IMG/VR virus record: IMGVR_UViG_3300022745_000126
Location: 1 to 29,096 of that record
Strand: one strand, 5' to 3'
From: a virus
DNA: 29,096 bases
Positions 106 to 20,687 of this stretch are shown here, piece by piece. Under the pieces are notes generated by a model. That model saw nothing but the letters and a program-made list of their open reading frames with translations, searched no databases and had not been told where the DNA came from. The position numbers and the translations under genes were made by a program. The stretch's first letter is position 1; the number at the start of each line of letters is the position of its first letter.

Positions 106-341
106 CAGAACGGCTCGACGACACGGGCGGGACGACGCTCAGCCAGTGTATGCGCGATACCCGACAGGGTAGCTTGCGATTTGACATGTGCGATATCGCG
201 GCCGGGGTGGTTGTTGCCCGGCTTGGCGCGCCACTGATGGCGTTCCTTGTAGACACGCCACGGGTTACCCTGCCCGTCATAGGCGACATACTCGCCATGG
301 TGGTAGGCAGAGGGTTCGACATTGGGGGGAAGAGCGGCCAT
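105..341 (-). CDS. small phage protein of unknown function
   Basis: A 78-residue leftward gene. The start ATG (341-339) is preceded by AAAGG about seven bases upstream, and that Shine-Dalgarno is the right half of a copy of the window-wide TTACC/GGTAA palindrome (346-361). The protein has a hydrophilic, aromatic-rich core (YHHGEYVAYDGQGNPWRVYK) that looks like a small beta-rich domain and resembles short accessory proteins of other tailed phages. It is followed by a basic segment and a short tail. The stop overlaps the start of the next leftward gene. Function unknown; it probably belongs to the early accessory operon. Confidence 0.6.
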   Translation of the reverse strand: MAALPPNVEPSAYHHGEYVAYDGQGNPWRVYKERHQWRAKPGNNHPGRDIAHVKSQATLSGIAHTLAERRPARVVEPF

Positions 342-345
342 GATG

Positions 346-361
346 TTACCTTTCGAAGTAA
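346..361. repeat. dispersed palindrome, at a leftward start codon
   Basis: TTACC TTTCGA AGTAA, one mismatch in the right half. On the minus strand its GGTAAC half is the ribosome-binding region of the 105-341 gene, with ATC between it and the ATG. Confidence 0.8.
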
Positions 362-374
362 GGGCCGTGTGTGG

Positions 375-533
375 TTACTTGGTAATGGCGTAGATCAAGA
401 ACGCCACAGCGTAGACAGCAACCGCAGCAGCATACCCGATCATGATAGCGGCACCGATAGGTGCGCCCAAGGAGCCGGCGATGAACGCGGCGATGAACGC
501 CACAGCGCCGGAAATAACGAACGCAATATCCAT
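375..533 (-). CDS. small two-segment membrane protein
   Basis: A 52-residue leftward gene starting at ATG 533-531. Translation gives a very hydrophobic, alanine/glycine/isoleucine-rich protein with two predicted membrane segments: roughly residues 4-20, a short turn with a conserved-looking GSLGAPIG stretch, and residues 26-49, ending IYAITK. The start has a strong Shine-Dalgarno (GGAGGG) lying inside a palindrome copy at 538-553. The stop codon at 375-377 lies in a shortened version of the same palindrome (TTAC TTG GTAA, 375-385). It could be an early membrane protein, for example a superinfection-exclusion or host-takeover factor, or a holin-like protein. Nothing in the sequence decides. 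Confidence 0.65.
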   Translation of the reverse strand: MDIAFVISGAVAFIAAFIAGSLGAPIGAAIMIGYAAAVAVYAVAFLIYAITK

Positions 534-537
534 GATG

Positions 538-553
538 TTACCCTCCGGGGTAT
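538..553. repeat. dispersed palindrome, at a leftward start codon
   Basis: TTACC CTCCGG GGTAT, one mismatch. The minus-strand reading contains GGAGGGTAAC, the Shine-Dalgarno of the 375-533 membrane-protein gene, three bases before its ATG. Confidence 0.8.
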
Positions 554-601
554 ACAGGTGTTATGGTGCAGCGGTGGTTTCGTGTATGCGCGGATAGTCA
601 A

Positions 602-624
602 TGTGCAGCGCTGCGCGCTGCACA
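602..624. repeat. perfect 10-bp inverted repeat with 3-nt loop
   Basis: TGTGCAGCGC and its exact complement GCGCTGCACA are separated by three bases, in the gap between the leftward genes 653-1396 and 375-533. It would form a strong hairpin in the leftward transcript. There is no U-run after it on either strand, so a Rho-independent terminator is doubtful; an RNA-processing or stabilising hairpin is as likely. Confidence 0.6.
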
Positions 625-637
625 ACTGGAGAGCCTG

Positions 638-653
638 TTACCCTACTGGGTAT
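638..653. repeat. dispersed palindrome, at a leftward stop codon
   Basis: TTACC CTACTG GGTAT, one mismatch. Its last base is the last base of the stop codon of the leftward gene 653-1396. Confidence 0.75.
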
Positions 654-1396
654 CAGTTGCGCGGGGCGGCGAGGGCGTGCACCGGCACCATCCCGCGCTT
701 GGCGAGGAACGCCATCGCTTGTGCCGCTTCCTTCTCGTCCTTGGTCATGGCCGGCACTTCGCCACCTGCCTCGACGATCGCTGCTTTGAGATCCGCCAGC
801 GCCAAGTCAGTCTCCGGCCGCGGGTAGTCGCTGGCAATCTTGTGGAGCGACTTGTACGCAGCGGCGAGCTTCTCAATCTCACCCTTGTCAGCCTTGTCGG
901 GTTTGCAGACGCACGCCGTGATCTGTTCGTCCGTCAGCTTGGTGTCGGGCGTCTCCAGCTGGGCGCGAGCGACGTCCAGCATAGCATCAAAGGGCGACTT
1001 GACCTTGGGGCCATCCTCGTTACCCTTCAAGGTAAGGGCAATCTCAGTGGCGCGCTTGAGCATGCCAGCGGCGCTGTCAAAGGGATCGTTGAGGATCGGC
1101 AGCGCGCCCATCTTGATGACCTGACGAAACTTGCTGACCTGCACCTTGGTGCTGTTGTCCACCAAGGACGCGTCGGGCTTGGGGCCAGACTTGTTAATCC
1201 CGACGGACTTCACGCCATCAAGGTAGACGGCGTACATCTCCTTGGCGTCGTCTTCATCGACGACACCCTCACGCTCCGCCAGCTGAAGGGCTGCTTTGCT
1301 GCGTGACATGCTGCCTTCCCCCTCACTTGCGCCGAGCTTCTTCATGGTCGCCAGCGCTGCGTCATACAGGGGCTGGATGTTGCTTTGATTGGTCAT
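653..1396 (-). CDS. hypothetical early protein, 247 aa
   Basis: A leftward gene. Two ATGs in one frame lie six bases apart (1402 and 1396). GGAG is only two bases from the first but about seven from the second, so I place the start at 1396 (MTNQSNIQPLYDAALATM). The product is charged and mostly alpha-helical, with many Ala/Lys/Glu residues. A two-cysteine stretch ACVCKPDK is followed by a helical region rich in lysine and glutamate. I recognise no domain. A perfect copy of the dispersed palindrome lies within the gene (1020-1035) and encodes L-T-L-K-G-N. Another copy ends at its stop codon. The product is probably an early, non-structural protein. Confidence 0.65.
   Translation of the reverse strand: MTNQSNIQPLYDAALATMKKLGASEGEGSMSRSKAALQLAEREGVVDEDDAKEMYAVYLDGVKSVGINKSGPKPDASLVDNSTKVQVSKFRQVIKMGALPILNDPFDSAAGMLKRATEIALTLKGNEDGPKVKSPFDAMLDVARAQLETPDTKLTDEQITACVCKPDKADKGEIEKLAAAYKSLHKIASDYPRPETDLALADLKAAIVEAGGEVPAMTKDEKEAAQAMAFLAKRGMVPVHALAAPRN
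1020..1035. repeat. dispersed palindrome, within a gene
   Basis: TTACC CTTCAA GGTAA, both halves perfect. Read in the leftward gene it encodes T-L-K-G-N. The same codons recur at the copy in 1482-1907 (T-L-K-G-S). Confidence 0.85.
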
Positions 1397-1425
1397 GGTC
1401 ATTCTCCGGTTTGGGTTGTGAATGC

Positions 1426-1450
1426 GCGTGGCGTCTTCGTGTCGCCACGC
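1426..1450. repeat. 8-bp inverted repeat (hairpin)
   Basis: GCGTGGCG (1426-1433) and CGCCACGC (1443-1450) flank a 9-nt loop in the gap between two leftward genes. On the plus strand it is followed by TGTTTT, so it looks most like a weak terminator for rightward transcription. No rightward gene ends here. Confidence 0.4.
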
Positions 1451-1468
1451 TGTTTTGAATCTGTGTAG

Positions 1469-1484
1469 TTACTCCGCGAGGTTA
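1469..1484. repeat. degenerate dispersed palindrome, at a leftward stop codon
   Basis: TTACT CCGCGA GGTTA has mismatches in both halves. Its last three bases are the stop codon of the leftward gene 1482-1907. It is counted only because the same placement occurs at three other early stop codons. Confidence 0.4.
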
Positions 1485-1907
1485 CTCGGGAATATCTTCG
1501 ACTGGCGCAGGATCTTCGTCATCCTTTGCCTTGGGGAAAGCTTCTTCGACGAACGCGTCAAACGCGTCGCCCAGTGCTGTCTTTTCAAAAACAGGCGGGA
1601 TATACCGCTCACCGAAGGTCGGCATATACTCCTGTTCGGCAGGTGCCTGCATGCTACCTTTCAAGGTAAGCGACACTCCACGCATGCCATCCAGACCGCC
1701 AGCGGAGAAAAGCTGATCCACTGATGCATCGTTTGCGCCGCGCCGATGCCGCATGACATAGGATTTACGCAGCTTTTTCATACCCGCCACGAGTAGTTCG
1801 GCTTCCACCAGAGCGGCAGAAACAGCACGAATCCCCTGTACAGGCTCCAAATCGAACAGTTCCTTATTCTTCAATCTTACGATTGACAGCTCAGTTGACG
1901 GCTTCAC
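1482..1907 (-). CDS. hypothetical early protein, 141 aa
   Basis: A leftward gene with a GTG start (1907-1905). GAGGTAAC, four bases before the GTG, is the Shine-Dalgarno and is the half-site of the palindrome at 1913-1928. The N-terminal half is basic and helical (MKKLRKSYVMRHRRG around residues 43-57) and the C-terminus is strongly acidic (KAKDDEDPAPVEDIPE). I recognise no family. A palindrome copy at 1654-1669 encodes L-T-L-K-G-S. It is the first gene behind the leftward promoter at 1944-1972, so it is expected to be transcribed early. A charged bipartite protein of this kind could bind nucleic acid or another protein, but that is a guess. Confidence 0.65.
   Translation of the reverse strand: MKPSTELSIVRLKNKELFDLEPVQGIRAVSAALVEAELLVAGMKKLRKSYVMRHRRGANDASVDQLFSAGGLDGMRGVSLTLKGSMQAPAEQEYMPTFGERYIPPVFEKTALGDAFDAFVEEAFPKAKDDEDPAPVEDIPE
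1654..1669. repeat. dispersed palindrome, within a gene
   Basis: CTACC TTTCAA GGTAA, one mismatch, inside the leftward gene 1482-1907, in the same codon phase as the copy at 1020. Confidence 0.75.
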
Positions 1908-1912
1908 TTATG

Positions 1913-1928
1913 TTACCTCGCTAAGTAG
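1913..1928. repeat. dispersed palindrome, at a leftward GTG start
   Basis: TTACC TCGCTA AGTAG, two mismatches in the right half. It lies in the 5' leader between the leftward promoter and the GTG at 1907, and supplies the GAGGTAAC Shine-Dalgarno. Confidence 0.65.
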
Positions 1929-1943
1929 TGAAGAAGTAACGCC

Positions 1944-1972
1944 TAGATATGCTTTTCATGAAAGCATGTCAA
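1944..1972 (-). promoter_or_regulatory. leftward sigma70-type promoter with palindrome in the spacer
   Basis: On the minus strand there is a perfect TTGACA (plus-strand 1972-1967), exactly 17 bases, then TATCTA (1949-1944). The spacer is filled by a perfect inverted repeat ATGCTTT/AAAGCAT around TCATG, placed where a repressor would block polymerase. Transcription would start near 1937, just upstream of the palindrome and GTG of the 1482-1907 gene. This is the best promoter match in the window and probably drives the early operon. Confidence 0.65.
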
Positions 1973-2075
1973 GATGTTACGATGTTATTTGTTGTCTTGA
2001 GGGGGTGAAAAAGGCTGTTTTAAAGAATAAGCATCGAGCGGGTAGGCTAAGCCATTGATATTACTGTATATTGTC

Positions 2076-2240
2076 TTATTCTTTATTCTTTAACATTATT
2101 GTACGCTGACAGCTATCAAGTGGAGGGTTAAAGTGAAAACATGATATTTGAGGGGATGATAGGATCAAGTGGAGACTTGACATAGGTTACCTATCGGCCG
2201 CTGGCTGCTGTTGATATATGAATTAAAGAATAAAGAATAA
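2076..2240. repeat. perfect 18-bp inverted repeat, arms 129 bp apart
   Basis: TTATTCTTTATTCTTTAA (2076-2093) recurs as its exact reverse complement at 2223-2240, which itself continues into a third AAAGAAT unit. Both arms are pure A/T plus a few G or C. Possible roles are an origin unwinding element or protein-binding iterons. Confidence 0.7.
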
Positions 2241-2270
2241 AGAATAAGAAAAGGAAAACCCTCCGGCGCC

Positions 2271-2346
2271 CTAACCCCTTGATCTCACTCACTTTTCTTC
2301 TGGCGGCTCTTTTCTGCGGCGTTGCCCTGCCTGCTAACCCCTTGAT
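2271..2346 (+). repeat. 13-bp direct repeat pair
   Basis: CTAACCCCTTGAT occurs exactly at 2271-2283 and 2334-2346, 63 bp apart (start to start), in the gene-free control region. Confidence 0.65.
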
Positions 2347-2474
2347 ATTACATCATTTTATTTTTCGCGGGTGTTAGCTGTGCTCTTGAATGCGCGTTTC
2401 GTGCTGACACACTACATCTTGTGGCGCTGTCTATAGGTAGACCCCCGTGGGGTAGACGATCACTATATGTAGTG

Positions 2475-2490
2475 TTACCCCCTCAGGTAC
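2475..2490. repeat. dispersed palindrome, at a leftward stop codon
   Basis: TTACC CCCTCA GGTAC, one mismatch. The stop codon of the leftward gene 2483-2749 lies inside the spacer (2483-2485). Confidence 0.75.
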
Positions 2491-2749
2491 GCGACCATGC
2501 GAACTTGGTGCGCTTGCCCAAGGCTTCACGGGTGGCGAGTGCAAGCGCGCGTTGGGCGATGATCTTGGCTGCGTGGTCAGCTTTCAAGCTTTCCAGCGTG
2601 ACAGGAGCGGGGCGAGGCACGAGCTTGCCACGGATCATCTGATACTCGCCACGCGGTGCAGCAAGCTCAGTGTAGCTTGCCTGTATAGCATACTCAGTTG
2701 CTTCAGCCTTGGCCTTTACGACCTTAGCTTGCATTGCACGGTTAGGCAT
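2483..2749 (-). CDS. small basic hypothetical protein, 88 aa
   Basis: A leftward gene. I place the start at ATG 2749-2747 (MPNRAMQAKVVKAKAEATEY), because TGGAGGTAAC sits immediately before it; the upstream extension of the frame has no such site. The protein is alanine/lysine/arginine-rich and predicted helical, with a central loop (PRGEYQMIRGKLVPRPAP), and ends in a basic tail. No family is recognised; its size and charge would suit a small nucleic-acid-binding phage protein. Palindrome copies sit on both its ribosome-binding site (2752-2767) and its stop codon (2475-2490), so the gene is bracketed by them. Confidence 0.65.
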   Translation of the reverse strand: MPNRAMQAKVVKAKAEATEYAIQASYTELAAPRGEYQMIRGKLVPRPAPVTLESLKADHAAKIIAQRALALATREALGKRTKFAWSRT

Positions 2750-2751
2750 TG

Positions 2752-2767
2752 TTACCTCCAGAGGTAG
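2752..2767. repeat. dispersed palindrome, at a leftward start codon
   Basis: TTACC TCCAGA GGTAG, one mismatch. On the minus strand it reads CTACCTCTGGAGGTAA and supplies the GGAGG Shine-Dalgarno of the 2483-2749 gene. Confidence 0.8.
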
Positions 2768-3097: not shown

Positions 3098-3173
3098 CAC
3101 CCTAGACTTGGGGGGCGCTGTTCCCGTGTCATGATCTGATGTTTTGATCATCCACACCCTAGACTTGGGGGGG
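3098..3173 (+). repeat. 18-bp perfect direct repeat pair
   Basis: CACCCTAGACTTGGGGGG occurs at 3098-3115 and 3155-3172, with one further G in the second copy. A GATC-centred dyad (ATGATC ... GATCAT, 3131-3151) lies between them. The unit looks like a protein-binding site; its role is unknown. Confidence 0.65.
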
Positions 3174-3174
3174 T

Positions 3175-3190
3175 TTACCCGGCCGGGTAC
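3175..3190. repeat. dispersed palindrome, intergenic
   Basis: TTACC CGGCCG GGTAC, one mismatch, with a fully palindromic spacer. It starts two bases after the second direct repeat. Confidence 0.7.
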
Positions 3191-3329: not shown

Positions 3330-3872
3330 ATGAAAACATATCAGCTCAGCACCCCGCCTCGAATGCCAGGTATTTACCTTATCCGGCATAAACCCACAGA
3401 CCGGCTATATGTCGGCCGGTCGCTAGACCTGTTTAGGAGATACTCAGATTGGAAGTTATCGCTTACAACCCATCTCGGGATACGCTCCTCAGCGATAAAG
3501 GAACTAGCCAAGCAAAGTTGCATCGACGATTGGGAGTTTAGTACTCTTATCGTTTACCCTGGAGCAACAGACGAGCAGCTTTCTGAGTACGAAAACCGGG
3601 CTGTTTCTAAGATAGGGGGCAGCTCGCCAGACCGGCTCTTGAACACTATTATGCCTAGTACCCCGCAAACGCCGCGCCCCCCTGGCGGTACGACGTCGCC
3701 AAAATCAGTGATTACCCTTGAAGGTAAGCCTACCACATACTCGTCTGCTGCAAAGATTTTAGGGTGTACTCCTAAGCAAGTGCAGAAGCGCATGGCACGA
3801 TACAGAGGGCGGGGGGTTTACGAAGTGGAGGTAGAGGAGCTGAAAACCCTTTCCGAAAAATACCGGGCATAA
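3330..3872 (+). CDS. GIY-YIG endonuclease (homing-type candidate)
   Basis: 180 residues. The N-terminal GIY-YIG nuclease fold is visible: G14-I-Y16, then Y27-V-G29 with the following R30, a basic helix (LFRRYSDWK), and a later SEYENRAV segment providing the usual acidic residue. After a proline-rich linker (about residues 107-125), the C-terminal part looks like a NUMOD-type DNA-binding module (SAAKILGCTPKQVQKRM), as in phage homing or Seg-type endonucleases. It lies alone between the control region and the tail module. No Shine-Dalgarno precedes the ATG; TATAGT at 3313-3318 would place a transcript start almost at the ATG. A palindrome copy (3712-3727) sits in the linker to the DNA-binding part and encodes I-T-L-E-G-K. 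A non-homing repair or restriction nuclease is possible. Confidence 0.8.
   Translation: MKTYQLSTPPRMPGIYLIRHKPTDRLYVGRSLDLFRRYSDWKLSLTTHLGIRSSAIKELAKQSCIDDWEFSTLIVYPGATDEQLSEYENRAVSKIGGSSPDRLLNTIMPSTPQTPRPPGGTTSPKSVITLEGKPTTYSSAAKILGCTPKQVQKRMARYRGRGVYEVEVEELKTLSEKYRA
3712..3727. repeat. dispersed palindrome, within the GIY-YIG gene
   Basis: TTACC CTTGAA GGTAA, both halves perfect. It reads I-T-L-E-G-K and falls just before the C-terminal DNA-binding module. Confidence 0.85.
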
Positions 3873-3972: not shown

Positions 3973-4000
3973 ACGCCAGCAAGGCCTCCCTTGCTGGCGT
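3973..4000 (+). promoter_or_regulatory. 12-bp perfect stem-loop in the leader of the tail module
   Basis: ACGCCAGCAAGG (3973-3984) and CCTTGCTGGCGT (3989-4000) enclose the loop CCTC. There is no U-run after it; the next base pairs start a palindrome copy (4000-4015). It could be a terminator for the GIY-YIG transcript, a leader attenuator or an RNA-processing site. Confidence 0.6.
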
Positions 4001-4015
4001 TACCCACCCAGGTAA
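4000..4015. repeat. dispersed palindrome, intergenic
   Basis: TTACC CACCCA GGTAA, both halves perfect. It abuts the stem-loop at 3973-4000 and lies about 60 bases before the tail-module start. Confidence 0.85.
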
Positions 4016-4332: not shown

Positions 4333-7265
4333 TTGGGTTCGGGCTCTCTCTGTGGGATAACAGCTCCGGCGCTGGCGCCTCCCCTCTGGCGCTCTACGCC
4401 AATGGTGAACCCGGTCCGTGGATCTCTCCGTCCAATATTATGAGCCTGTTTCAGGACTCCATCGGTACGACGCCCGTGACGGCCTACGGCCAGCAGGTAG
4501 GCCTCGCGCTGGACCAGTCCAACACGATGGCGCTGGGACCGGAACTGATTTCCGGCTCGTGGACGCTCACTGTGGCGGGGACGGCAACGGCAACGGAAGT
4601 TCCTGCAGGGACGCTCAACCTGACTGGCGATGGGACAAACAGCGCGATTGCGGACATGTCCATCGCGACGGTCATTGGTGCGACTTACAAGCTGACTGCT
4701 TCAGGGTCAGGTTCCGCTGCTGGTTTCCAGATCGGTCCTACGCAGGGCAGTAGCGCTATTGCTAACGGGTTTTTCCCCGCAGGGCCAAATACTTCGACTT
4801 TTGTGGCAACCTCAACAACCACTTGGTTGCGCTTTAATCGGTCAGCAGTCGGCACTGCTGTCGTCACCACCATCTCCGCCCGTCAGGTCACGCACCTCGG
4901 CAGCGAGCGGATCACCAACGGGGCGTTCCCGACTGACCTTAGCGGGTGGACGCAGGCCAATACCGGGGCTTCGACTGTCACTTGGTCGGCTGGCGTGGCG
5001 CTGTTCAATACGAATGGCGTGGATGCTGCGCGACTTCGGCAATCCTTTCCCACGGTTGTCGGTGGAACCTATCTAGTGTCAGTTGGTGGCACTGGAATTA
5101 ACGTTGGTATAGGAACGATAGCCGGGGCAGTTGATATTGTAGGGGCTGTAACAACCCCTACTCAACCAACCTTTACCTTCGTTGCGACTACCACTACGAC
5201 TTGGTTCAATACGTCTTCCGCCATCAACGGCTCCACACTCGACAACGTAACCGTCCGCCAGATCATCCGCGACGGCTCGGAAATGAACTCCATCCTGCCG
5301 TGGACCCTGACTGTCGCAGGCACCGCCACCGCTACGGAAAGCCCGACCGGGACGCTCAACCTCACGGGGGATGGGACCAATTCCGGCAACGCAGACAAGT
5401 CGTTTTCGACTGTCGCTGGGGCAACGTACAAGGTCAGCTTCACGGTCGCAACGACAGCAATTTTTGCATCGGTCGGCGTCACGCAGGGCGCGTCAGGTAT
5501 CGTCGCGGCCACGTCTTTCAGCGCTGGCGCTGGCAGCTTCTACTTCCTCGCAACGGGTGCGACTTCATGGGTGCGCTTTGCCAAGACGGGCGCGGCGCTA
5601 TCCATCGTCTCCAACATCTCCGTCAAACTCGTCGCTGGCGCTCACGCCTCGCAGCCGACCTCGACCAAGCGCCCCTACTACGGCCAGTGGCCCGCGCAGA
5701 AGGCACGGAACCTCGCGCAGTATTCCAGCGATCTGAGCAATGCCTATTGGATCAAGCAGGCTGGTGCCTCTGTGGCTGCTGCTGGTGTGAATACCCCGCT
5801 GGGCAACCCGGCGTGGACGATCACCTACAGCGCGATTGACGGAACTGCGCAGGTAAAGTCAGCAACGCGCACGGTCGTCGCGGGTGAAGTATATACTGTC
5901 TCGGCGTGGATTTCAGCCGGAACATCTCCCGCTGTGTCCTTGCGGCTTTTTGATGGTGCAGGAACAGTTGTTCCCGGCGCACCTTCCATAACCCCCACGG
6001 GGTCAATGGTTCGCTATACCTTCTCAGCGGCAATGCCGAACGGCGGGTCTGGGGCTTTCTTTGACATTCGGGGTTCGTCAGTCACCGCAGGCACCGTCAT
6101 CGTCGGGGATATTCAGTGGGAGTTGTCCTCCACCGCCTCTGCCTACCAGAAGCAAACCGGGGCCGGGGTCTACTCCGATCCGCTCTACCGGAACTTGGCG
6201 AACGGGTCGGCTGATGTGGGGAACACGACCTATTGGTACGGATCGAACGCGAGTGCTGGGATCACCTACACCAAAATTGGATCAGGTATTGATATTGATG
6301 GTCTACCTTATGGTGATTTTACTATTTCGGGCACGGCCTCCACAACCGCCTCTCCCGACCTATACGTAATCACTAACTCTCGCGCGCCTGCGGCCCTCAA
6401 TCAAGTCTATACATGCTCCGTTATTTCGCAGGTGATAGCAGGTACACCACCCCCCGGTGGAAGTGGGACGAGACTTGATGTGGTTGGGGAAACGGCACCC
6501 TCTACAATAGTAGAAACTTCTTTTGGGTCAGCCGGGGTAACAGGGACTGCCTCCACTAAGTCCACTACTCTTACTGTGGCAAATGCAGCAACAAACCAAG
6601 TCCGGTTGCGTGTTACGGAAGCAATCGCCAGTGGAGTGACGGTCAACTACACCGTTCGCATCAAAGCCCTCCAGTTCGAACTCGGCACCGCCCGCACCGC
6701 CTACCAAGCCAACTACTCGCAGTACCAAGTCACGGAGGCTGGGCTGCCCTCACCGGCGGGGCTGCTGTTCGACGGCGTGGATGACTTCCTTGTGACGCCG
6801 ACGATCACGCCGGGGACGGATAAAGGACAGGTGTTCGCTGGGCTGCGGAAGCTGTCAGATGCGGCTCGGGCTATATTTGCTACGCAGCAAGGGACGGCAT
6901 CGCGGCTGTCGCTTGAGGCTCCGGGTTCGGCGCTAAACAACTACACAACTACCTCCGGTGGATCAACGCTTGCGGGAGCAAATAGCGGAGCCATTCCTGC
7001 CCCTATCGCGTCCGTTGTCACTGCACTGGACGATATTTCGGGTGTGTCGCTGACTCTTCGCGTCAATGGCGCTCAAGTGGCCTCCAGTGCGGCAACGCAG
7101 GGTACTGGCAATTATACTGCTGGCGCTGTAACCCTCGGGACTAATGGATCAAGTCCCTTCAATGGCGTCATGAACGAGTTCGTCATGCGGTTCGGGCCAA
7201 ACCTCACCACTGGCCAGATCACGTCGACCGAGTCCTACACCAACTCGAAAACCGTCGCATACTGA
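4329..7265 (+). CDS. large tail fibre / receptor-binding protein with carbohydrate-binding-like repeats
   Basis: 978 residues. The N-terminal segment (about 30-65: WISPSNIMSLFQDSIGTTPV, then a GLALDQS-like stretch) is a signature seen in phage tail proteins. It is followed by several Gly/Thr/Ser-rich beta-sandwich repeats resembling carbohydrate-binding modules. Two are close copies: one around residues 75-118 and one around 318-365, both containing WTLTVAGTATATE and GTLNLTGDGTNS. The C-terminal ~180 residues (after LLFDGVDDFLV) look like a concanavalin/LamG-type lectin domain. These features support surface glycan recognition. It is co-translated with the gene before and the protease-like gene after. 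No palindrome copy occurs in its 2.9 kb, and no enzymatic motif was seen. Confidence 0.8.
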   Translation: MIGFGLSLWDNSSGAGASPLALYANGEPGPWISPSNIMSLFQDSIGTTPVTAYGQQVGLALDQSNTMALGPELISGSWTLTVAGTATATEVPAGTLNLTGDGTNSAIADMSIATVIGATYKLTASGSGSAAGFQIGPTQGSSAIANGFFPAGPNTSTFVATSTTTWLRFNRSAVGTAVVTTISARQVTHLGSERITNGAFPTDLSGWTQANTGASTVTWSAGVALFNTNGVDAARLRQSFPTVVGGTYLVSVGGTGINVGIGTIAGAVDIVGAVTTPTQPTFTFVATTTTTWFNTSSAINGSTLDNVTVRQIIRDGSEMNSILPWTLTVAGTATATESPTGTLNLTGDGTNSGNADKSFSTVAGATYKVSFTVATTAIFASVGVTQGASGIVAATSFSAGAGSFYFLATGATSWVRFAKTGAALSIVSNISVKLVAGAHASQPTSTKRPYYGQWPAQKARNLAQYSSDLSNAYWIKQAGASVAAAGVNTPLGNPAWTITYSAIDGTAQVKSATRTVVAGEVYTVSAWISAGTSPAVSLRLFDGAGTVVPGAPSITPTGSMVRYTFSAAMPNGGSGAFFDIRGSSVTAGTVIVGDIQWELSSTASAYQKQTGAGVYSDPLYRNLANGSADVGNTTYWYGSNASAGITYTKIGSGIDIDGLPYGDFTISGTASTTASPDLYVITNSRAPAALNQVYTCSVISQVIAGTPPPGGSGTRLDVVGETAPSTIVETSFGSAGVTGTASTKSTTLTVANAATNQVRLRVTEAIASGVTVNYTVRIKALQFELGTARTAYQANYSQYQVTEAGLPSPAGLLFDGVDDFLVTPTITPGTDKGQVFAGLRKLSDAARAIFATQQGTASRLSLEAPGSALNNYTTTSGGSTLAGANSGAIPAPIASVVTALDDISGVSLTLRVNGAQVASSAATQGTGNYTAGAVTLGTNGSSPFNGVMNEFVMRFGPNLTTGQITSTESYTNSKTVAY

Positions 7266-7624: not shown

Positions 7625-7694
7625 CTGGTGGATCTTACCCTGTGTGGTAACTGGAGCAGTCGCTTGGATACTGCTCCTGGGTCACTTCTTCTAG
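7617..7694 (+). CDS. possible 25-aa membrane micropeptide
   Basis: A GTG-initiated frame overlapping the end of the protease-like gene encodes 25 residues, MTSWWILPCVVTGAVAWILL then LGHFF, which would form one membrane segment. It ends four bases into the convergent TerL stop region. It carries a perfect palindrome copy (7635-7650). No clear Shine-Dalgarno is seen, so coupling would be needed. It could be chance. Confidence 0.25.
   Translation: MTSWWILPCVVTGAVAWILLLGHFF
7635..7650. repeat. dispersed palindrome, between convergent genes
   Basis: TTACC CTGTGT GGTAA, both halves perfect. It is placed between the end of the tail module (7624) and the end of TerL (7691), and is the first copy after the 3.6-kb copy-free tail module. 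Confidence 0.85.
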
Positions 7695-9133
7695 GTCCAA
7701 GCCCGAGACGTCACTTGCTCGCGTGGCGCCCTGTTCCTCGGTCTCAGCCGGTTGGCGACCATATCACTCATACCACCATGAGAAGCTACACAGGCGTACT
7801 GGAACGCGTCTGCGACGTGGCTGTACTCATTCTTGTCCGGAGTGGGCTTACGCACCCCGCCGCGCGTCTTACCGAAGCGGTAACCCCCAGAGAGAGCGCG
7901 CACTAGCATAGGACAGCGTGACTCGTCGATAAGTACCGCCGGGCCACCTTCACGAGACCCCAGGAGCCAGCTCTCCACGGCGTTGAGGCGCTTGCTGATA
8001 TCGTTGGTGGGGGCAGGGTAGGCAAGGAGCCCGTTGCGCTTGATGAGGTCGAACGACGTCTCTTCGTAGAGTGTCGATCTCTGGTTACCTGCGGGGTCAC
8101 CCACGATATAGAGTGCCTTACCAAGATACCTCGGGTTCATCAGTACAGGACGAATCGCGCGCTGCAGTTGGAGCTCAAGCCCGATATCCTCGGCAATAAT
8201 CTCTTCGAGAACGAGCAGCCGGCCGCGGTGATCGGGCTGACAGATTACAGCACAAGGATCTCGGCCGAAGTCGAGTCCGACAATGATAGGCCAACCCGAA
8301 ACTGGCGTGAGATCATTGACGCAGTGCCAGTGACGATTGAAGCTCTCACGGAATACCGCCGTACCCGAGGGGTCATCGCCATACTGAGCATGCACATAGC
8401 GCTTGCACCATGTTGGGGAGTTAGATCGGATGAAGCGCTCATAGTACTTTCTACCTTGCCCCCTGCGGACCTCGTCTGTTACCGGAAGCTTCAGTGTTTC
8501 CGGAGTCTGTGTAAGCCATTCTAGGTTCTCTGCATTATCTTCCATACCGCCAGGCTGAATAAAGATCTGGGCGTCTGGCGGCGGCATAGACATGAACTTA
8601 TGCCAGGGGGTACCTTCTGACGGCATGTTTGTGTCGCAGATAATACCAGACCAAGAGCAGCCACCTAGGGTAGCGCCGGGATAACGGCCGCAGCGACCTG
8701 CAAGCGGGGACATTAGGTCCACGTTCATCTCAATGGCTTCGGACATCCAGGCCCCGGTAAGCTGGAGCGACAAGAGACGGGCTTGATCTTCAGGGTTATC
8801 GAGTGGGATTAGGAGCCATTCACTCCGCACATCTCCGACTTCGATGTATATTGTGCTTTCTGAAACCTTATAGCTTGCAACATGCTTCAACCAGTCTTGA
8901 ATATCCTTTAACACAGTGTCACGCAGCTGTTTTAATGTAGATCGCACCACAGCAAACCGGGTATATCTATATCCATCTGGGGACGGCGCCTGCTCCAGCG
9001 CCCTACGAAAAAGTTCAAAAAGGCATGCAGTGGTTTTACCAGAACCAACAGGACCTGCAATTAACCTAGTGAACGACTTTGACCGCATAAATGCTGCGCA
9101 AGTCGGAGGAGCTGTATAGTTAATCGCTGGCAT
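7691..9133 (-). CDS. terL: terminase large subunit (packaging ATPase/nuclease)
   Basis: 480 residues, leftward. Walker A is GPVGSGKT (residues 27-34). The Walker-B-like segment is LTGAWMSEA around 128-136, followed by the GRCGRYP stretch typical of this TerL branch. The C-terminal RNase-H-like nuclease is shown by GLDFGRDP, then VGDPAG, and HVADAFQYA near the end, which supply the metal-binding acids. It converts ATP hydrolysis into DNA translocation through the portal and cuts the concatemer. The start at 9133 is two bases after the stop of the upstream gene, whose GAGGGATAAC serves as the ribosome-binding site. The operon faces away from the portal gene. Confidence 0.93.
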   Translation of the reverse strand: MPAINYTAPPTCAAFMRSKSFTRLIAGPVGSGKTTACLFELFRRALEQAPSPDGYRYTRFAVVRSTLKQLRDTVLKDIQDWLKHVASYKVSESTIYIEVGDVRSEWLLIPLDNPEDQARLLSLQLTGAWMSEAIEMNVDLMSPLAGRCGRYPGATLGGCSWSGIICDTNMPSEGTPWHKFMSMPPPDAQIFIQPGGMEDNAENLEWLTQTPETLKLPVTDEVRRGQGRKYYERFIRSNSPTWCKRYVHAQYGDDPSGTAVFRESFNRHWHCVNDLTPVSGWPIIVGLDFGRDPCAVICQPDHRGRLLVLEEIIAEDIGLELQLQRAIRPVLMNPRYLGKALYIVGDPAGNQRSTLYEETSFDLIKRNGLLAYPAPTNDISKRLNAVESWLLGSREGGPAVLIDESRCPMLVRALSGGYRFGKTRGGVRKPTPDKNEYSHVADAFQYACVASHGGMSDMVANRLRPRNRAPREQVTSRAWT

Positions 9134-9357: not shown

Positions 9358-9614
9358 TTCAGCCTCGCACGATTGGTAAACTGGTTGTATTTGAACTCGG
9401 AGGCCTTGTGACCGGATGCCTTAGCTGCCCGGTCCTTGGCGCGGCCGGCCGCACCCATCGCCTCACGAGTCTTACCCTTCGAGGTAAGTTCCTTGGTCCC
9501 GGGCTTGAGATCCCCAGCGCGCTGCAGCTGCTTGCTGGCGACGGCATAGGCCTCCTTCTCAGGCATTCCCTTGGCTTTGAGTTGGGATACCAGTCGGTCA
9601 TAGAGCTTCTGCAT
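9354..9614 (-). CDS. small basic helix-rich phage protein (DUF7218-like), 86 aa
   Basis: Leftward; I place the start at ATG 9614-9612 (MQKLYDRLVSQLKAKGMPEK), since it overlaps the previous stop (TGATG) and follows GAGGATG. The sequence pattern (MPEKEAYAVASKQL, then LKPGTKEL, GRAKDRAAKASGHK and a final YNQFTNRARLK) is that of small basic proteins common near phage and plasmid packaging or structural genes. A C-terminal lysine/arginine-rich stretch would suit nucleic-acid or virion interior contact. A perfect palindrome copy (9472-9487) lies in it and encodes L-T-S-K-G-K. The precise function is unknown. Confidence 0.7.
   Translation of the reverse strand: MQKLYDRLVSQLKAKGMPEKEAYAVASKQLQRAGDLKPGTKELTSKGKTREAMGAAGRAKDRAAKASGHKASEFKYNQFTNRARLK
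9472..9487. repeat. dispersed palindrome, within a gene
   Basis: TTACC CTTCGA GGTAA, both halves perfect, in the leftward packaging operon. It encodes T-S-K-G-K in the same codon phase as the others. Confidence 0.85.
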
Positions 9615-9817: not shown

Positions 9818-10337
9818 CGCCTTCCTCCTCGGTCCAAGAGAACTCAATATCCGGATCATCTTCAGCAGGATACTCGCCGACGGTTACCTTGGGGGTAATA
9901 TCCCGCTCAACGCGAAGCTGCTGGTCTGCGCCCAGATTGATCGTTACGGTGAGCTTCTCACCGGTGCCGACATCCCCTACGGTCCGCTCAAGTCCGGCTA
10001 GCTTGGTAATCGTCTTGAACACTTCAGTCTTGTGCTGCAGCGCCTCCTTAGAGTCGTGCATGCGAGTGTAGAACTCAGGGAGCGCCTCTTCTACCATTGA
10101 GAGGGCCTTCATCTTTACCCGCTCCTTGGTATTGATAGCGCTGTTCCACTCTTCGAGGGCGCCCTTCAGGTATGCCTTGAAGGTATAGCTCTCTTTGATG
10201 CTCTGCCAGCTATAGTCGTCAACCTCATACGTAGCCAGGATGTCGCCGATTTCTCGGATGTCCATGGCAATTTCTCTGGCCAGTTTCAGCAATACTGCAT
10301 CGTTGAAACTAGGCTGTTGCACGGCGGTGGTAGCCAT
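9810..10337 (-). CDS. terS: terminase small subunit candidate
   Basis: 175 residues, first gene of the leftward packaging operon; the start ATG 10337 follows AAGGAAA. The N-terminal half is helical (LKLAREIAMDIREIGDILAT, residues ~16-35) in the manner of a small-terminase DNA-binding domain. A long central helix (TFKAYLKGALEEWNSAI) with charged repeats would suit the oligomerisation core, and the acidic C-terminus (PDIEFSWTEEEGDA) would suit the portal/TerL contact. The call rests on size, helical pattern, acidic tail and operon with TerL; there is no diagnostic motif. The 15-nt palindrome at 9884-9898 lies in it. Confidence 0.72.
   Translation of the reverse strand: MATTAVQQPSFNDAVLLKLAREIAMDIREIGDILATYEVDDYSWQSIKESYTFKAYLKGALEEWNSAINTKERVKMKALSMVEEALPEFYTRMHDSKEALQHKTEVFKTITKLAGLERTVGDVGTGEKLTVTINLGADQQLRVERDITPKVTVGEYPAEDDPDIEFSWTEEEGDA
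9884..9898. repeat. dispersed palindrome, 15-nt variant
   Basis: TTACC TTGGG GGTAA, perfect halves with a 5-nt spacer, inside the small terminase gene; it encodes I-T-P-K-V-T. Confidence 0.65.
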
Positions 10338-10424: not shown

Positions 10425-12512
10425 ATGGCAGAAGCACTTGGCGCAGTCTTGCGCGTTGTAGGACCCAATCAGCTCGATGCAGCTATAAAGGCTCGCGACG
10501 AGGAGGCCGCCGCTGTCCAAGATGCAGCTTCCTCAGGTAACCAAGGTTACCCCGCTCTGTCGAGCCATATTCGCGGTGAGTTCGATATGATGAAGCGCCA
10601 CCGCAACAACGCAGTGGCCGGCTGGTCTGACCGGCTCCTCAGTGCGCTCAGGGCCTTTAACGGCCAGTACGACGCCAACAAACTGAACGAAATCCGGAAA
10701 TTTGGCGGTTCTGAGACCTATGCGCGTATCATTGCGATGAAATGTCGCGGTGCCAGCTCACTTCTGCGGGATGTTTACCTGTCTCCCGATCGCCCATGGG
10801 GGCTTGATGCTAGCGACGATCCCAAGATTCCGCCGGAGATCGCACAGGCAGTGACCCAGCTGGTTCAGAGCGAAGCCCAGTCTATGTCTGTCATGGGGCA
10901 ACCCCCGGATATTGCCAAGATCCGCGACCGAACTATGCAGTTGATGGAGGCCGCACGCCAAGCTGCCAAGAAAAAAGCCGAGAAAGGCGCCCAGATCGCC
11001 GAGGATAAGCTCGATGAGATCCTGAAAGAGGGTGGATTCTACAAGGCTCTGGCTGAATTTCTGGTCGATTTGCCCCTTTTTCCGTTTGCAGTGATCAAAG
11101 GACCGGTTGTCCGGATCATGCCAGTAGTTACCTGGGAAAGTAACCAAGCCAAAATCCAGCAAATCCCGCGCCTGACTTGGACGCGGGTATCTCCATTCGA
11201 TGTTTGGTGGACCCCCGGGGTCTCAGATATCGAAGATGCGTCGGTTATCGAGCGCACAAGGCTCACACGAGCCGATCTGAACGACCTTTTAGACCTTCCG
11301 GGGTACGATCAGGACGCTATTCGGTCGGTTTTGGACCTCTACGGGCGCGGAGGACTCAACGATAGCGTTGATGTTACCGATGCAGAGCGCGCGTCGCAGG
11401 AATCTCGTGAAAACCCGACACTGAACCAGTCCGGCCTGATCACATGCCTTGAATTTACAGGGAATGTGCAGGGGAAAATGCTCCTTGAGAATGGCATGGA
11501 TGCAAAAACGATCACTGACCCACTTCGCGACTATTTCGTGCAGGCTTGGGTGATCGGGCAGTTCATCATCAAGGTCCAGCTGGCGCCAAGCCCGCGTAAA
11601 CGACACCCTTACTATATCACAAGCTTTGAGAAGGTACCGGGTACCCCAGTAGGTAACGGTCTTCCGGACATCCTGTCTGATATCCAAGAGGCTGGTAACG
11701 CCACCCTACGCGCCCTGATTAATAACTTGAGCATAGCGTCAGGCCCGCAGGTTGTTGTGAACGACGACCGACTAGCGTCCGACGAAGATGGCGAAGAAAT
11801 CTATCCATGGAAGCGCTGGCATGTTCAGAGTGACCCGATGGGAAACAATAGTTCCCAGAAGCCGATCGACTTCTTCCAGCCTCAGTCTAATGCCCAAGAG
11901 CTGCTCGGCGTATATCAGCAGTTCGTCAATATGGCTGACGACCTCTCGGCCATTCCCAAATACCTATCAGGGTCCGGTGCCTCCGGCGGGGCGGGGCGCA
12001 CTGCCTCGGGCCTGGCTATGCTCATGGGTAATGCCTCTAAGATCCTCCAGACGGTGGCTGCGAACATCGACCGCGACGTACTTGAGCCTCTTCTGAGCGC
12101 GTTGTTTGATATGGTGATGCTTACTGATCAGTCTGGCATCCTGACCGGCGAAGAGAAAGTCCGCGTCCTTGGCGTTTCTGTGGCCGTCCAGAAAGAAACC
12201 CAGCGGGCTCGCCAACTTGAGTTCCTTCAAACGACTGCTAATCCAATTGATGCTCAGATCATCGGACCCAAGGGTCGAGCTGCTATCCTTAGAAATGTTG
12301 CAACTACCTTGGGTCTTCCCGGAGAGGAGATTGTCCCCTCAGAAGACCAGCTCGATGCTATGCAGAAGCAAGCTCAGGCCATGGCGCAGTCTCAGGGCGT
12401 ACCCGGGCATGCAGGTGTTGGACAGCAGGCAGCAGAAGCCCAAGGGGCACAGCCTGGACCTCTTGGGAAGGATATGGGTCCTCGTACAAATATCGCTGGC
12501 GGGGTGGGCTAA
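10425..12512 (+). CDS. portal protein
   Basis: 695 residues from ATG 10425 (MAEALGAVLRVVGPNQ), chosen because AGGATATTTCA precedes it; the frame remains open upstream but lacks a site. Its length and plan fit short-tailed-phage portals. A helical N-terminus is followed by a long basic coiled-coil (AARQAAKKKAEKGAQ) and a wing/stem core with WTRVSPFDVWWTP. SGSGASGGAGRTASGLAML follows in the region where portals of this type carry a conserved Gly/Ala stretch. The C-terminus is Gln/Gly/Pro-rich. It forms the dodecameric head vertex for DNA entry and tail attachment. It is transcribed divergently from the terminase operon across an 87-bp gap. It contains palindrome copies at 11128 and 11641. Confidence 0.85.
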   Translation: MAEALGAVLRVVGPNQLDAAIKARDEEAAAVQDAASSGNQGYPALSSHIRGEFDMMKRHRNNAVAGWSDRLLSALRAFNGQYDANKLNEIRKFGGSETYARIIAMKCRGASSLLRDVYLSPDRPWGLDASDDPKIPPEIAQAVTQLVQSEAQSMSVMGQPPDIAKIRDRTMQLMEAARQAAKKKAEKGAQIAEDKLDEILKEGGFYKALAEFLVDLPLFPFAVIKGPVVRIMPVVTWESNQAKIQQIPRLTWTRVSPFDVWWTPGVSDIEDASVIERTRLTRADLNDLLDLPGYDQDAIRSVLDLYGRGGLNDSVDVTDAERASQESRENPTLNQSGLITCLEFTGNVQGKMLLENGMDAKTITDPLRDYFVQAWVIGQFIIKVQLAPSPRKRHPYYITSFEKVPGTPVGNGLPDILSDIQEAGNATLRALINNLSIASGPQVVVNDDRLASDEDGEEIYPWKRWHVQSDPMGNNSSQKPIDFFQPQSNAQELLGVYQQFVNMADDLSAIPKYLSGSGASGGAGRTASGLAMLMGNASKILQTVAANIDRDVLEPLLSALFDMVMLTDQSGILTGEEKVRVLGVSVAVQKETQRARQLEFLQTTANPIDAQIIGPKGRAAILRNVATTLGLPGEEIVPSEDQLDAMQKQAQAMAQSQGVPGHAGVGQQAAEAQGAQPGPLGKDMGPRTNIAGGVG
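11128..11143. repeat. dispersed palindrome, within the portal gene
   Basis: TTACC TGGGAA AGTAA, one mismatch; encodes V-T-W-E-S-N in the common codon phase. Confidence 0.7.
11641..11656. repeat. dispersed palindrome, within the portal gene
   Basis: GTACC CCAGTA GGTAA, one mismatch; encodes G-T-P-V-G-N. Confidence 0.65.
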
Positions 12513-14074: not shown

Positions 14075-15123
14075 GTGTAACGCTTCAGGACGATCCGAAT
14101 ATCAAGCTTCCCCGGTCTGTACGCGAAGCTGCGGCAAAAGCCGATCAGATGTTCCATTCGTATCGGGACTTCCCAGTAAACGAACCGACGAAAGAGGGCA
14201 CTGACATTACCCCTCAGGTTACCCAGGATGGTAACCCCGAGCTGGCCGCTACTACCTTGACGGCCGATGTTCAAAACCCTGCACAGGTTACCCAAGAGGT
14301 AACGCAGCAGCCTACCGAAGACGACCAGTCTTGGGAGCACAAATATAAATCCCTTCATGGGCGGTTCCTCCAATCTCAGGGGCAGAATCGCAGCATGGCG
14401 GATCAAATCCGTGATCTGCAGGGTGTCATTGCTACTATGCAGGCTACGGCAGCGGCAGCTCCGGTTCCGCAAGTTTCCGACTTCAAGTTCGAAAGCCAGT
14501 TGACTCCAGAGGAGATCAACGACTACGGCGCGGATCTTCTGACCGTCGTCGGCAAGAAAGCTCGTGAGGAGTTTGCCCCGATCGCGAAAGCGTATGAGGC
14601 GAAGATCGCTCAGCTTGAGAGCCGGCTGGAAGGTTTCTCTGGGTTCGTCCAACAGGACTCGCACCAGAAACTGGTGTCCACACTTGATGCTCGGTTGCCA
14701 AATTGGCGCGAAATTAACACCAATCAGCAATATCTCGATTGGTTGAGCTTGCCTGATCCCTATTCAGGTGCTATTCGTCATGATATGCTGAAAGCAGCAT
14801 ACGCTCAGGGCAACGCCCCCCGTGTTCTAGCTTTCTTTAATGGCTTCCTCGCTGAAGAGGCTGTTGTGGACCCCGTGGCTAAGGAGCCGGACCAAAAGAC
14901 GGTAACCGTCGATAAGGTCCCGCTCGCGACGTTCGCGGCACCCGGCAGAGCAAAGACGGCGGCATCCGCCCAGGCGCCCGCTGAGAAGCCCATCTTCACA
15001 CGCGCTCAAATTGCTGGTTTTTACGCGGACATCTCGCAGGGCAAGTACCGCGGCAGAGATGACGCGAAGAACAAAGCCGAAGCAGAGATCTTCGCAGCAC
15101 AGCGTGAAGGGCGCATCCGTTGA
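14071..15123 (+). CDS. scaffolding protein
   Basis: 350 residues from GTG 14071 (an in-frame upstream ATG at 14032 lies inside the previous gene and has no site). The product is acidic, Gln/Ala/Glu-rich and mostly alpha-helical, with a coiled-coil around residues 150-210 (KARE, AKAYEAKIAQLESRL). It ends in a basic segment (KYRGRDDAKNKAEAEIFAAQ) of the kind that binds the coat subunit. Composition, size and position directly before the capsid gene are the classical signature of a phage scaffold. The core is expected to be lost or expelled on maturation. Palindromes at 14219 and 14288 lie in its N-terminal region, which is rich in T-Q-D/E residues. Confidence 0.82.
   Translation: MSVTLQDDPNIKLPRSVREAAAKADQMFHSYRDFPVNEPTKEGTDITPQVTQDGNPELAATTLTADVQNPAQVTQEVTQQPTEDDQSWEHKYKSLHGRFLQSQGQNRSMADQIRDLQGVIATMQATAAAAPVPQVSDFKFESQLTPEEINDYGADLLTVVGKKAREEFAPIAKAYEAKIAQLESRLEGFSGFVQQDSHQKLVSTLDARLPNWREINTNQQYLDWLSLPDPYSGAIRHDMLKAAYAQGNAPRVLAFFNGFLAEEAVVDPVAKEPDQKTVTVDKVPLATFAAPGRAKTAASAQAPAEKPIFTRAQIAGFYADISQGKYRGRDDAKNKAEAEIFAAQREGRIR
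14219..14234. repeat. dispersed palindrome, within the scaffold gene
   Basis: TTACC CAGGAT GGTAA, both halves perfect; encodes V-T-Q-D-G-N. A degenerate 15-nt copy (14207-14221) overlaps it by three bases, making a small cluster. Confidence 0.8.
14288..14302. repeat. dispersed palindrome, 15-nt variant
   Basis: TTACC CAAGA GGTAA, perfect halves with a 5-nt spacer; encodes V-T-Q-E-V-T. Third copy in 95 bp of the scaffold gene. Confidence 0.7.
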
Positions 15124-16652: not shown

Positions 16653-16680
16653 TAATGGGGGGCCTTACCGCCCCCCATTA
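16653..16680 (+). terminator. 11-bp perfect stem-loop, terminator-like, overlapping a palindrome copy
   Basis: TAATGGGGGGC (16653-16663) pairs exactly with GCCCCCCATTA (16670-16680) over the loop CTTACC. No U-run follows. The last three bases are shared with the palindrome at 16678-16693, and the loop itself contains TTACC. Confidence 0.6.
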
Positions 16681-16693
16681 CCTCATGGGGTAA
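16678..16693. repeat. dispersed palindrome, at the start of the adaptor gene
   Basis: TTACC TCATGG GGTAA, both halves perfect. GGGGTAAG forms the only Shine-Dalgarno-like sequence ahead of ATG 16698, so here the motif serves a rightward gene in the same way as the leftward ones. Confidence 0.8.
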
Positions 16694-17696: not shown

Positions 17697-18116
17697 ATGG
17701 CAGTCACGAACAAGTTCTACCAGTTCACCAAAGACCTGATCGACGGGAAGCACATCTTCTCAACACATACCTATAAGATCATGCTGACCAACACGGCGCC
17801 CGTAGCTACGAACCAGGTTAAGGCAGATATTACCGAGATCGCAGCCACCGGTGGGTATACCGCAGGAGGTAACACCACGACGATCACGGAGAGCACCACT
17901 TCTGGCACGGCCAAGATCGTGGGCTCCAACGTGGTGTTCACTGCCACCGGGGCTCTCGGTCCGTTCCAGTACGCTGTGATGTACAATGACACCCAGACGG
18001 TGCCGGCAAAGCCGCTCGTCTGCTGGTGGGACTATGGCTCGTCTATCACCATGGCAAATACGGAAACTCTCACCGTGGCGTTCGATGCAGCCAACGGTAT
18101 CGTGACAGTCGTCTAA
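17697..18116 (+). CDS. tail/virion structural protein, 139 aa
   Basis: ATG 17697 is preceded by GAGGTACATC. The product (MAVTNKFYQFTKDLIDGKHI at the start, then THTYKIMLTNTAPVATNQVK, TEIAATGGYTAGGN, and PLVCWWDYGSSITMANTETL) is a compact beta-rich virion protein. Homologous-looking proteins are widespread beside tail and fibre genes of many phages. It begins a subset of fibre-linked genes that continues in 18126-19121. Probably a tail base or decoration component. Confidence 0.7.
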   Translation: MAVTNKFYQFTKDLIDGKHIFSTHTYKIMLTNTAPVATNQVKADITEIAATGGYTAGGNTTTITESTTSGTAKIVGSNVVFTATGALGPFQYAVMYNDTQTVPAKPLVCWWDYGSSITMANTETLTVAFDAANGIVTVV

Positions 18117-19673: not shown

Positions 19674-19689
19674 TTACCTACTGCGGTAA
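19674..19689. repeat. dispersed palindrome, at the predicted start site of the lysis promoter
   Basis: TTACC TACTGC GGTAA, both halves perfect, beginning directly after the candidate -10 box. If the promoter is real this copy is placed as an operator. Confidence 0.8.
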
Positions 19690-20512: not shown

Positions 20513-20678
20513 CGGATGCACCCCGACGACTCGGGACGCTTCTTTGCAGTCTATGCCAAGCCTATGCGCCTCGTTTGAGGTCATTCATCCGTCTAGGGAA
20601 GATATGTTGACCACAGATACCAAGCGTCAGATCTTGGCACATAACGAAGTTTACCGGGCTATGTGCCCCATTGCCTAA
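20457..20678 (+). CDS. o-spanin lipoprotein (Rz1-like)
   Basis: 73 residues; ATG 20457 lies inside the i-spanin gene in another frame, overlapping it by 56 bases. A short basic start (MRYPVPK) and hydrophobic stretch (LTLVFLVITASNG) end in Cys21 as a lipobox-like site (S-N-G-C), so it should be lipidated and carried to the outer membrane. The remainder is small and polar (TPTTRDASLQSMPS onward), in line with Rz1 proteins. The pair indicates a Gram-negative host. Confidence 0.75.
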   Translation: MRYPVPKLTLVFLVITASNGCTPTTRDASLQSMPSLCASFEVIHPSREDMLTTDTKRQILAHNEVYRAMCPIA

Positions 20679-20687
20679 GGTGGTAAC

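Follow-up and report, generated by a model that had tools for sequence, protein, structure and literature searches.

What is the role of the short palindromes that lie at the start and stop codons of the leftward early genes near one end of IMG/VR virus record IMGVR_UViG_3300022745_000126? The window analysed here is this whole record of 29,096 bases, a fragment of a podophage-like genome that encodes a large terminase (7691-9133, minus strand), an SU10-type portal, a major head protein and tail genes. The palindrome is a 16-bp dyad, TTACC-N6-GGTAA, and there is a second spacing class, TTACC-N5-GGTAA. We consider it probable that the copies are genome-wide double-stranded DNA sites for a phage-encoded dimer, likely the product of gene 653-1402, and that they have a stoperator-like job. 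The window contains 12 perfect copies with the N6 spacing and 4 with N5, but none with N4 or N7; when one mismatch is allowed, the numbers for N6, N5, N4 and N7 are 25, 9, 1 and 0. The perfect N6 pattern read backwards gives 0 copies. With up to two mismatches, 40 copies of TTACC-N6-GGTAA were found against 7.5 expected, a number reached by 0 of 100 shuffles.

The sequence-only reading had presented these copies as bracketing the early leftward genes. All four copies that it placed directly before start codons are there, as are three of the four placed at stop codons, which overlap or touch the stop (Table 1). The fourth, at 375-385, is TTAC-N3-GTAA, the spacing of which differs from that of the dyad family. 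The palindrome itself is confirmed, but what looked like bracketing is a local view of a genome-wide array and is not special to early genes. Perfect or near-perfect copies that had escaped notice are present within the same early genes (653-1402 and 1482-1907), and further copies run throughout the late region. The N5 spacing class had escaped notice as well. Between positions 1 and 27132, where the non-coding share is 8.5%, 32 sites with at most one mismatch comprise 22 coding and 10 intergenic sites. One perfect dyad lies within a plus-strand gene at 3330-3872 that has a GIY-YIG-like sequence (Pfam E 0.0004, below the cut-off).

Among named phages, those with a terminase protein closest to that of the window are four Rhizobium phages, RHph_TM3_14A being one of them (60.9 kb, 53% identity; hereafter TM3_14A), and relatives of this terminase are encoded on hundreds of IMG/VR contigs. 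The first 8 kb of the window had no DNA match among 50,697 phage records. The dyad-bearing clade is a family of soil and water phages, and the clade dominated by the dyad consists of podophages of ~60 kb. When clade genomes were scanned without bias for any 5-mer dyad, nearly all had a TTAC-based dyad ranked first or close to first. TTACC with N5 or N6 and GGTAA was present in 39 of 50 records found through the terminase; these 50 were scanned out of 80 found, the other 30 being mostly short, and all 80 loci were counted separately. The looser pattern TTAC-N7/8-GTAA occurred in 11 of 11 records found through the 653-1402 family (6-64 copies; reversed control 0-2) and in 13 of 15 found through an unrelated gene of the replication region. 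The sequence of the dyad drifts along the clade (GTTACC, GTTACT, TTACCG, TNACTAT) while its geometry is nearly constant. Records with few or no TTACC copies include shifted versions, namely TTACT in G009, which has one TTACC copy, and in L015; in G050 the dyad is TNACTAT in the same register. TTACCG with a dominant N5 spacing characterizes four of the records found through the replication-region gene, G069, G070, G075 and G077, the last of which also uses N4. No such dyad array was found in the outgroups BcepC6B, Hodr, Mx8 and Rollin, runs of N being skipped in the Rollin scan. Dozens of dyad copies per genome, about one per kb, are kept under selection, and they probably serve a DNA-binding protein of the phage's own.

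Whether the copies act as DNA or as RNA was examined from the two halves of the dyad. Among 729 sites with at most one mismatch, overall agreement between the halves was no higher than that of independent draws; we ascribe slight excesses at two inner positions of N6 sites to the pooling of genomes of different consensus. With one pair left free and the rest intact, compensatory double changes within genomes numbered 48, against 48.6 expected without pairing. On the sense strand, left-arm C to T changes, which would allow a G-U pair, were not commoner (54) than right-arm G to A changes, which would give an A-C mismatch (68). The four early leaders folded no better than shuffles (z of -0.70, 0.51, -0.10 and 0.56), and two intragenic copies showed the same behaviour. 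Comparison within three pairs of related genomes gave 89-96% identity for the ten half-site bases and 75-86% for the flanks, the central 5-6 bases being close to the flanks in identity. Intragenic N6 sites fell 266 and 105 times in the two stop-free frames and 29 times in the stop-containing frame; for N5 sites the numbers were 112, 72 and 13. Conservation confined to the half-sites, together with the use of both stop-free frames, indicates that selection acts on DNA half-sites. Taken with the independence of the halves, the absence of a wobble bias and leaders that are no more stable than shuffles, this conservation points to a double-stranded DNA site for a dimer rather than an RNA stem.

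TM3_14A, 10% of which is non-coding, has 64 sites, 18 of them intergenic. When 844 sites from 20 genomes were pooled, 88 lay within 20 nt upstream of called starts against ~18 expected, and 69 N6 sites lay within 20 nt after stops against 13 expected; starts outside TM3_14A are longest-ORF (open reading frame) calls, so these counts are approximate. The association of sites with gene junctions holds for the clade, though it concerns a minority of them. N5 sites are nearly all coding (in TM3_14A, 1 of 20 is intergenic), and six sites lie within a single 6.9-kb gene of TM3_14A. Near the terminase gene, relatives differ in the positions of their sites. The mean gap between sites ranges from 0.6 to 2.0 kb across genomes. 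In 9 of 24 genomes the sites are spaced more evenly than under a compositional null (p <= 0.02), and the z combined over the 24 genomes is -5.7; the effect is strong in TM3_14A, G054, G016, G003 and G049. Even spacing is absent in the window (coefficient of variation 1.03 vs 0.95), G032, G045, G009 and G039, among others.

A phyletic profile was drawn up by scoring 168 genes, taken from G075 and G037, in 20 near-complete genomes with the dyad and 3 without it (G071, G072 and G078). Three families were found in all 20 dyad-bearing and none of the dyad-free genomes: that of window gene 653-1402, a MoxR AAA+ ATPase (phrog_1297), and a metallopeptidase-VWA protein (DUF2201; PF13203, PF09967). A 75-residue protein, tm054, follows closely at 19/20 and 0/3. 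In clade genomes the order of this cassette is fixed on one strand, as 653-1402 family, MoxR, tm054 and VWA; in the window, which is truncated, the MoxR and VWA genes are not seen. The four outgroups yielded no member of any of these four families. A near exception is L014, which has the 653-1402 family and no TTAC dyad; TWACT-N6-AGTWA occurs there 5 times against 0.2 expected.

With MoxR as the starting point, 80 loci were found, 69 of them of at least 10 kb. A strong dyad was present in 51 of the 69 and in 0 of 28 control segments. Of the 49 MoxR loci whose sequence takes in the 653-1402 family, 40 have one. This set overlaps in part with the genomes of the other comparisons. The score cut for a strong dyad was set at 16 because a score above 12 is passed by 3 of the 28 control segments. 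The dyads at MoxR loci vary widely in sequence (TTGATC, TGTTCC, AACTAT and others). MoxR as the sole marker was rejected: Roseobacter phage CRP-7 and Thermus phage phiFa (30 kb each) are without a strong dyad despite a MoxR-type ATPase, and the same is true of N4 and LUZ7 (25 kb each). A separate case is Synechococcus phage MinM2 (L334, 25000-65014), which encodes MoxR, DUF3150 and VWA proteins and has a strong but different dyad, GTTCA-N3-TGAAC, with 21 copies in 40 kb; no recognisable 653-1402 relative was found.

The 653-1402 protein had no Pfam, PHROG or PDB match. Its relatives were found by alignment search and none by single-sequence search. The family has a conserved motif, G.KAN.SKLRQ, which in the window version reads STKVQVSKFRQ and lies in helix 85-99. 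The structure model is confident and all-helical (predicted local distance difference test, pLDDT, 82). Foldseek gave no PDB match at E <= 0.001, VIA gave Z <= 5.7, which is chance level for helical models, and the viral structure matches were two uncharacterised proteins. The orthologue in TM3_14A lies at 18372-19100. The homologue in dyad-bearing G066 (L233:2213-2982 = G066:C1:62213-62982) is divided between two overlapping frames, by a frameshift or a sequencing error. Weighing the co-occurring proteins by elimination, as described below, leaves the 653-1402 family as the best candidate for the binder.

Two Bradyrhizobium assemblies carry members of the clade. Phage-bearing contigs account for 11 of the 13 perfect sites in one genome and 9 of the 12 in the other, the reversed-pattern control giving 10 and 9. 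The element in Bradyrhizobium sp. 139 is divided between two contigs: C166 begins with its replication genes, and C111 ends with its structural genes. One border carries a large serine recombinase gene (L185:3435-5165), and both borders share 17 bp that include a dyad half-site. Sites with at most one mismatch number 38 in the element and 1 in the remaining host sequence read. This element is a probable integrated prophage of the clade, with the sites ending at its borders. In 16 other members, a tyrosine integrase was detected in 7 and serine-type recombinases in none. Partition sites of the parS/ParABS type were considered and rejected, ParB_N and AAA_31 each being found in 0 of 16 records.

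In the explanation that we favour, each copy would be a double-stranded DNA site for a phage-encoded dimeric protein, and the copies together would form an array over the whole genome. Half-site centres 10 or 11 bp apart correspond to one helical turn, so that the two halves would be presented on one face of the double helix; such a geometry would account for the use of N5 and N6, and for N4 and N7 being hardly ever used in the window. The helical 653-1402 protein is the most likely binder, and its dimers would occupy sites about once per kb, being loaded or removed, we infer, by the MoxR AAA+ and VWA (DUF2201) pair. By analogy with stoperators, bound dimers dispersed over the genome would most likely hold back or pace transcription, also across gene junctions, in the prophage, early in infection, or both. 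The suggestion of the sequence-only reading that the copies, when bound as DNA, could block elongation appears compatible with all findings and close to this explanation.

Several observations weigh against it. The sites are kept by 9 of 16 members in which no tyrosine integrase was detected, an observation that a function confined to lysogeny would leave unexplained. A CI-like HTH_3 repressor was found in 0 of 16 records, so that a repressor role for the 653-1402 candidate is one that we infer. No DNA-binding fold was recognised in the 653-1402 family, and 9 of the 49 MoxR loci that encode it are without a strong dyad. Motif divergence mostly follows phylogeny, and the Mantel correlation thus singles out no protein as the binder (r of 0.66 for the 653-1402 family, against 0.63 for terminase, 0.66 for primase and 0.73 for VWA). 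Finally, the three dyad-free genomes are partly related and may represent only one or two evolutionary events.

The same protein-DNA array could have another job, which is to organise, compact or shield the phage genome, with MoxR-VWA as loader or remover. We regard this as a serious possibility, if not the favoured one, and an organising or shielding job is nearly as likely as transcription control. It fits the spread of sites over early and late genes and within long genes, as in TM3_14A, the combined evenness of the gaps over 24 genomes, and the retention of arrays by members without a detected integrase. On the other hand, even spacing is lacking in the window and the four other genomes named above, and the preference for junctions is what a transcription role predicts, though weaker coding constraint at junctions would also fit. 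Rather tentatively, the four-gene system, widespread among phages, may be taken to build a self-specific nucleoprotein array, a phage chromatin loaded and removed with ATP, that silences, shields or sorts the genome; it is similarly conceivable that within such a chromatin each lineage drifted to its own dyad, at about one per kb.

Should another phage protein bind the array, the candidates would be the complex of MoxR and VWA, or the tm062 family of small winged-helix-like proteins. MoxR and VWA share the profile of the 653-1402 family, and the tm062 family has weak Trans_reg_C/HTH (helix-turn-helix) matches, but we find this assignment doubtful. N4 and LUZ7 have both MoxR and VWA and no dyad in their first 25 kb. 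The tm062 family is missing from the site-bearing genomes G046 and G057, for which reason it was rejected as the binder; it was not found in G040 either, though in that region the G040 record seems incomplete. No tm054 protein was found in dyad-bearing G050. A small protein encoded at L125:34654-34968, with its relatives, has a CtrA/PhoB-like winged-helix look and a weak Trans_reg_C match, and its gene lies between those for DNA polymerase and a RecB-type exonuclease.

The sequence-only reading had also likened the copies to recombination boundaries at which small genes are exchanged as cassettes, and this we now consider improbable. In the pair G037/G038, a fraction of 0.113 of similarity breaks lay within 30 nt of a site, compared with ~0.03 of random positions, and a half-site lies in the 17-bp sequence that the Bradyrhizobium prophage has at either end. 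In two further pairs the fraction was 0.020-0.089, against 0.030-0.038 at random. Because the sites favour gene junctions, where breaks are expected anyway, closeness of breaks to sites supports exchange weakly, and the evidence is inconsistent among the three pairs. Purifying selection on half-sites within conserved genes would need some other reason.

Still less probable is that the dyad is the site of a host regulator. Phages often borrow regulators of their hosts, but in the two Bradyrhizobium genomes perfect sites outside phage DNA are no more frequent than the reversed control, and the dyad changes in sequence from one part of the phage clade to another and goes together with phage genes; this idea was rejected. 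The proposal in the sequence-only reading of an RNA stem that occludes the ribosome-binding site and thereby turns translation on or off is as remote: although half-sites often overlap the Shine-Dalgarno position, with 88 of 844 sites close upstream of starts, and hairpins appear in several minimum-energy folds, the majority of sites are intragenic, and the independence, wobble and folding tests given above led us to reject it.

Stoperators of the L5 type are bound by the phage immunity repressor (the L5 repressor). Like the sites of our clade, Cluster A stoperators are many dispersed phage sites, and they have a role in transcription termination and silencing (PMC4351075, PMC3203893). They are 13 bp long, asymmetric and oriented with transcription (PMC4351075, PMC3203893), whereas the clade sites are symmetric, being 15-18 bp long and mostly intragenic, with two spacings and equivalent halves. 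Another likeness is found in Cluster O mycobacteriophages, the Corndog group, which have more than 30 copies of a 17-bp dyad described as of unknown function (PMC4351075). These dyads are spread over the genome, about a third of them within genes, and are predicted to bind a dimer; the phages have no integrase and yielded no stable lysogens (PMC4351075). The Cluster O dyad is TGTTCGG-N3-CCGAACA with near-invariant arms and one spacing (PMC4351075), in contrast to the TTAC-based dyad with its two spacings. None of the four cassette families is encoded between 44 and 71 kb of the Cluster O phage Firecracker.

Two other systems have features in common with the clade. The start-associated sequences (SAS) and ESAS of Cluster K mycobacteriophages are short repeats at ribosome-binding sites; SAS are 13-bp, asymmetric and start-tied, with 11-19 copies per genome (PMC3203893), whereas ~10% of the clade sites are start-tied. 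For the inverted repeats of ESAS, RNA hairpins were rejected since changes in the arms break the pairing (PMC3203893). Group 2.2 jumbo phages also encode a MoxR AAA+/vWA pair, including the N-terminal metallopeptidase part, which is proposed to serve virion assembly (PMC7824862); the clade pair accompanies the 653-1402 family and the dyad. Ternary MoxR-vWA conflict systems were also considered as relatives (PMC7159879). None of these closest known systems, as far as the cited sources describe them, pairs this cassette with a genome-wide dyad of drifting sequence, and among the papers listed by literature searches that covered few subscription journals, none was recognised as an account of the dyad or of these Rhizobium phages. 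Dispersed dyads of unknown function were described for Cluster O in 2015; here they are found in a large clade, some members of which are cultured Rhizobium phages and one a probably integrated Bradyrhizobium element, where the dyads show measurable selection, drift in sequence, and are gained or lost together with three gene families. This co-occurrence names candidate proteins and makes the purpose of such arrays directly testable.

Table 1. Positions in the window of the candidate binder gene and of the dyad sites
Feature	Position	Strand	Remark
Candidate site-binding protein, 249 aa, all-helical, early gene	653-1402	-	family in 20/20 dyad-bearing, 0/3 dyad-free genomes; pLDDT 82
Degenerate dyad N6	157-172	.	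2 mismatches
Dyad site N6, upstream of 105-341 start	346-361	.	
Dyad site N6, upstream of 375-533 start	538-553	.	
Dyad site N6, at 653-1402 stop	638-653	.	
Perfect dyad N6, within 653-1402	1020-1035	.	
Degenerate dyad N6, at 1482-1907 stop	1469-1484	.	2 mismatches
Dyad site N6, within 1482-1907	1654-1669	.	
Degenerate dyad N6, upstream of 1482-1907 start	1913-1928	.	2 mismatches
Dyad site N6, over 2483-2749 stop	2475-2490	.	
Dyad site N6, upstream of 2483-2749 start	2752-2767	.	
Dyad site N6, intergenic	3175-3190	.	
Perfect dyad N6, within GIY-YIG-like gene 3330-3872	3712-3727	.	
Perfect dyad N6, intergenic	4000-4015	.	
Perfect dyad N6, intergenic	7635-7650	.	
Perfect dyad N5, within large terminase gene	7869-7883	.	
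Dyad site N5, within large terminase gene	8085-8099	.	
Perfect dyad N6, coding	9472-9487	.	
Perfect dyad N5, coding	9884-9898	.	
Dyad site N6, within portal gene	11128-11143	.	
Dyad site N6, within portal gene	11641-11656	.	
Dyad site N5, overlapping 14219-14234 site	14207-14221	.	
Perfect dyad N6, coding	14219-14234	.	
Perfect dyad N5, coding	14288-14302	.	
Perfect dyad N6, just upstream of start 16698	16678-16693	.	
Dyad site N6, coding	17857-17872	.	
Perfect dyad N6, just upstream of start 19705	19674-19689	.	
Dyad site N6, just upstream of start 20688	20671-20686	.	
Perfect dyad N6, coding	20758-20773	.	
Dyad site N5, coding	22049-22063	.	
Dyad site N5, coding	23072-23086	.	
Dyad site N6, coding	23703-23718	.	
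Dyad site N6, coding	25628-25643	.	
Dyad site N5, coding	25802-25816	.	
Perfect dyad N6, coding	26378-26393	.	
Perfect dyad N5, coding	26943-26957	.	
Perfect dyad N6	28138-28153	.	
Perfect dyad N6	29032-29047	.	

The window contains other repeats. A 22-nt inverted repeat of the TTCTTTATTCTTTA type, unrelated to the dyad, surrounds 138 nt of non-coding sequence (2071-2092 and 2231-2252). In a long non-coding stretch, the exact 18-bp direct repeat CACCCTAGACTTGGGGGG occurs at 3098-3115 and 3155-3172, 57 nt apart. Within a tail-region gene for a protein of 978 residues, 134 nt are repeated with 72% identity (4558-4691 and 5299-5432). Near the right end of the window there are short tandem repeats, and a minus-strand ORF at 28004-28381 encodes GASVA repeats, the opposite frame encoding PLPKH repeats.

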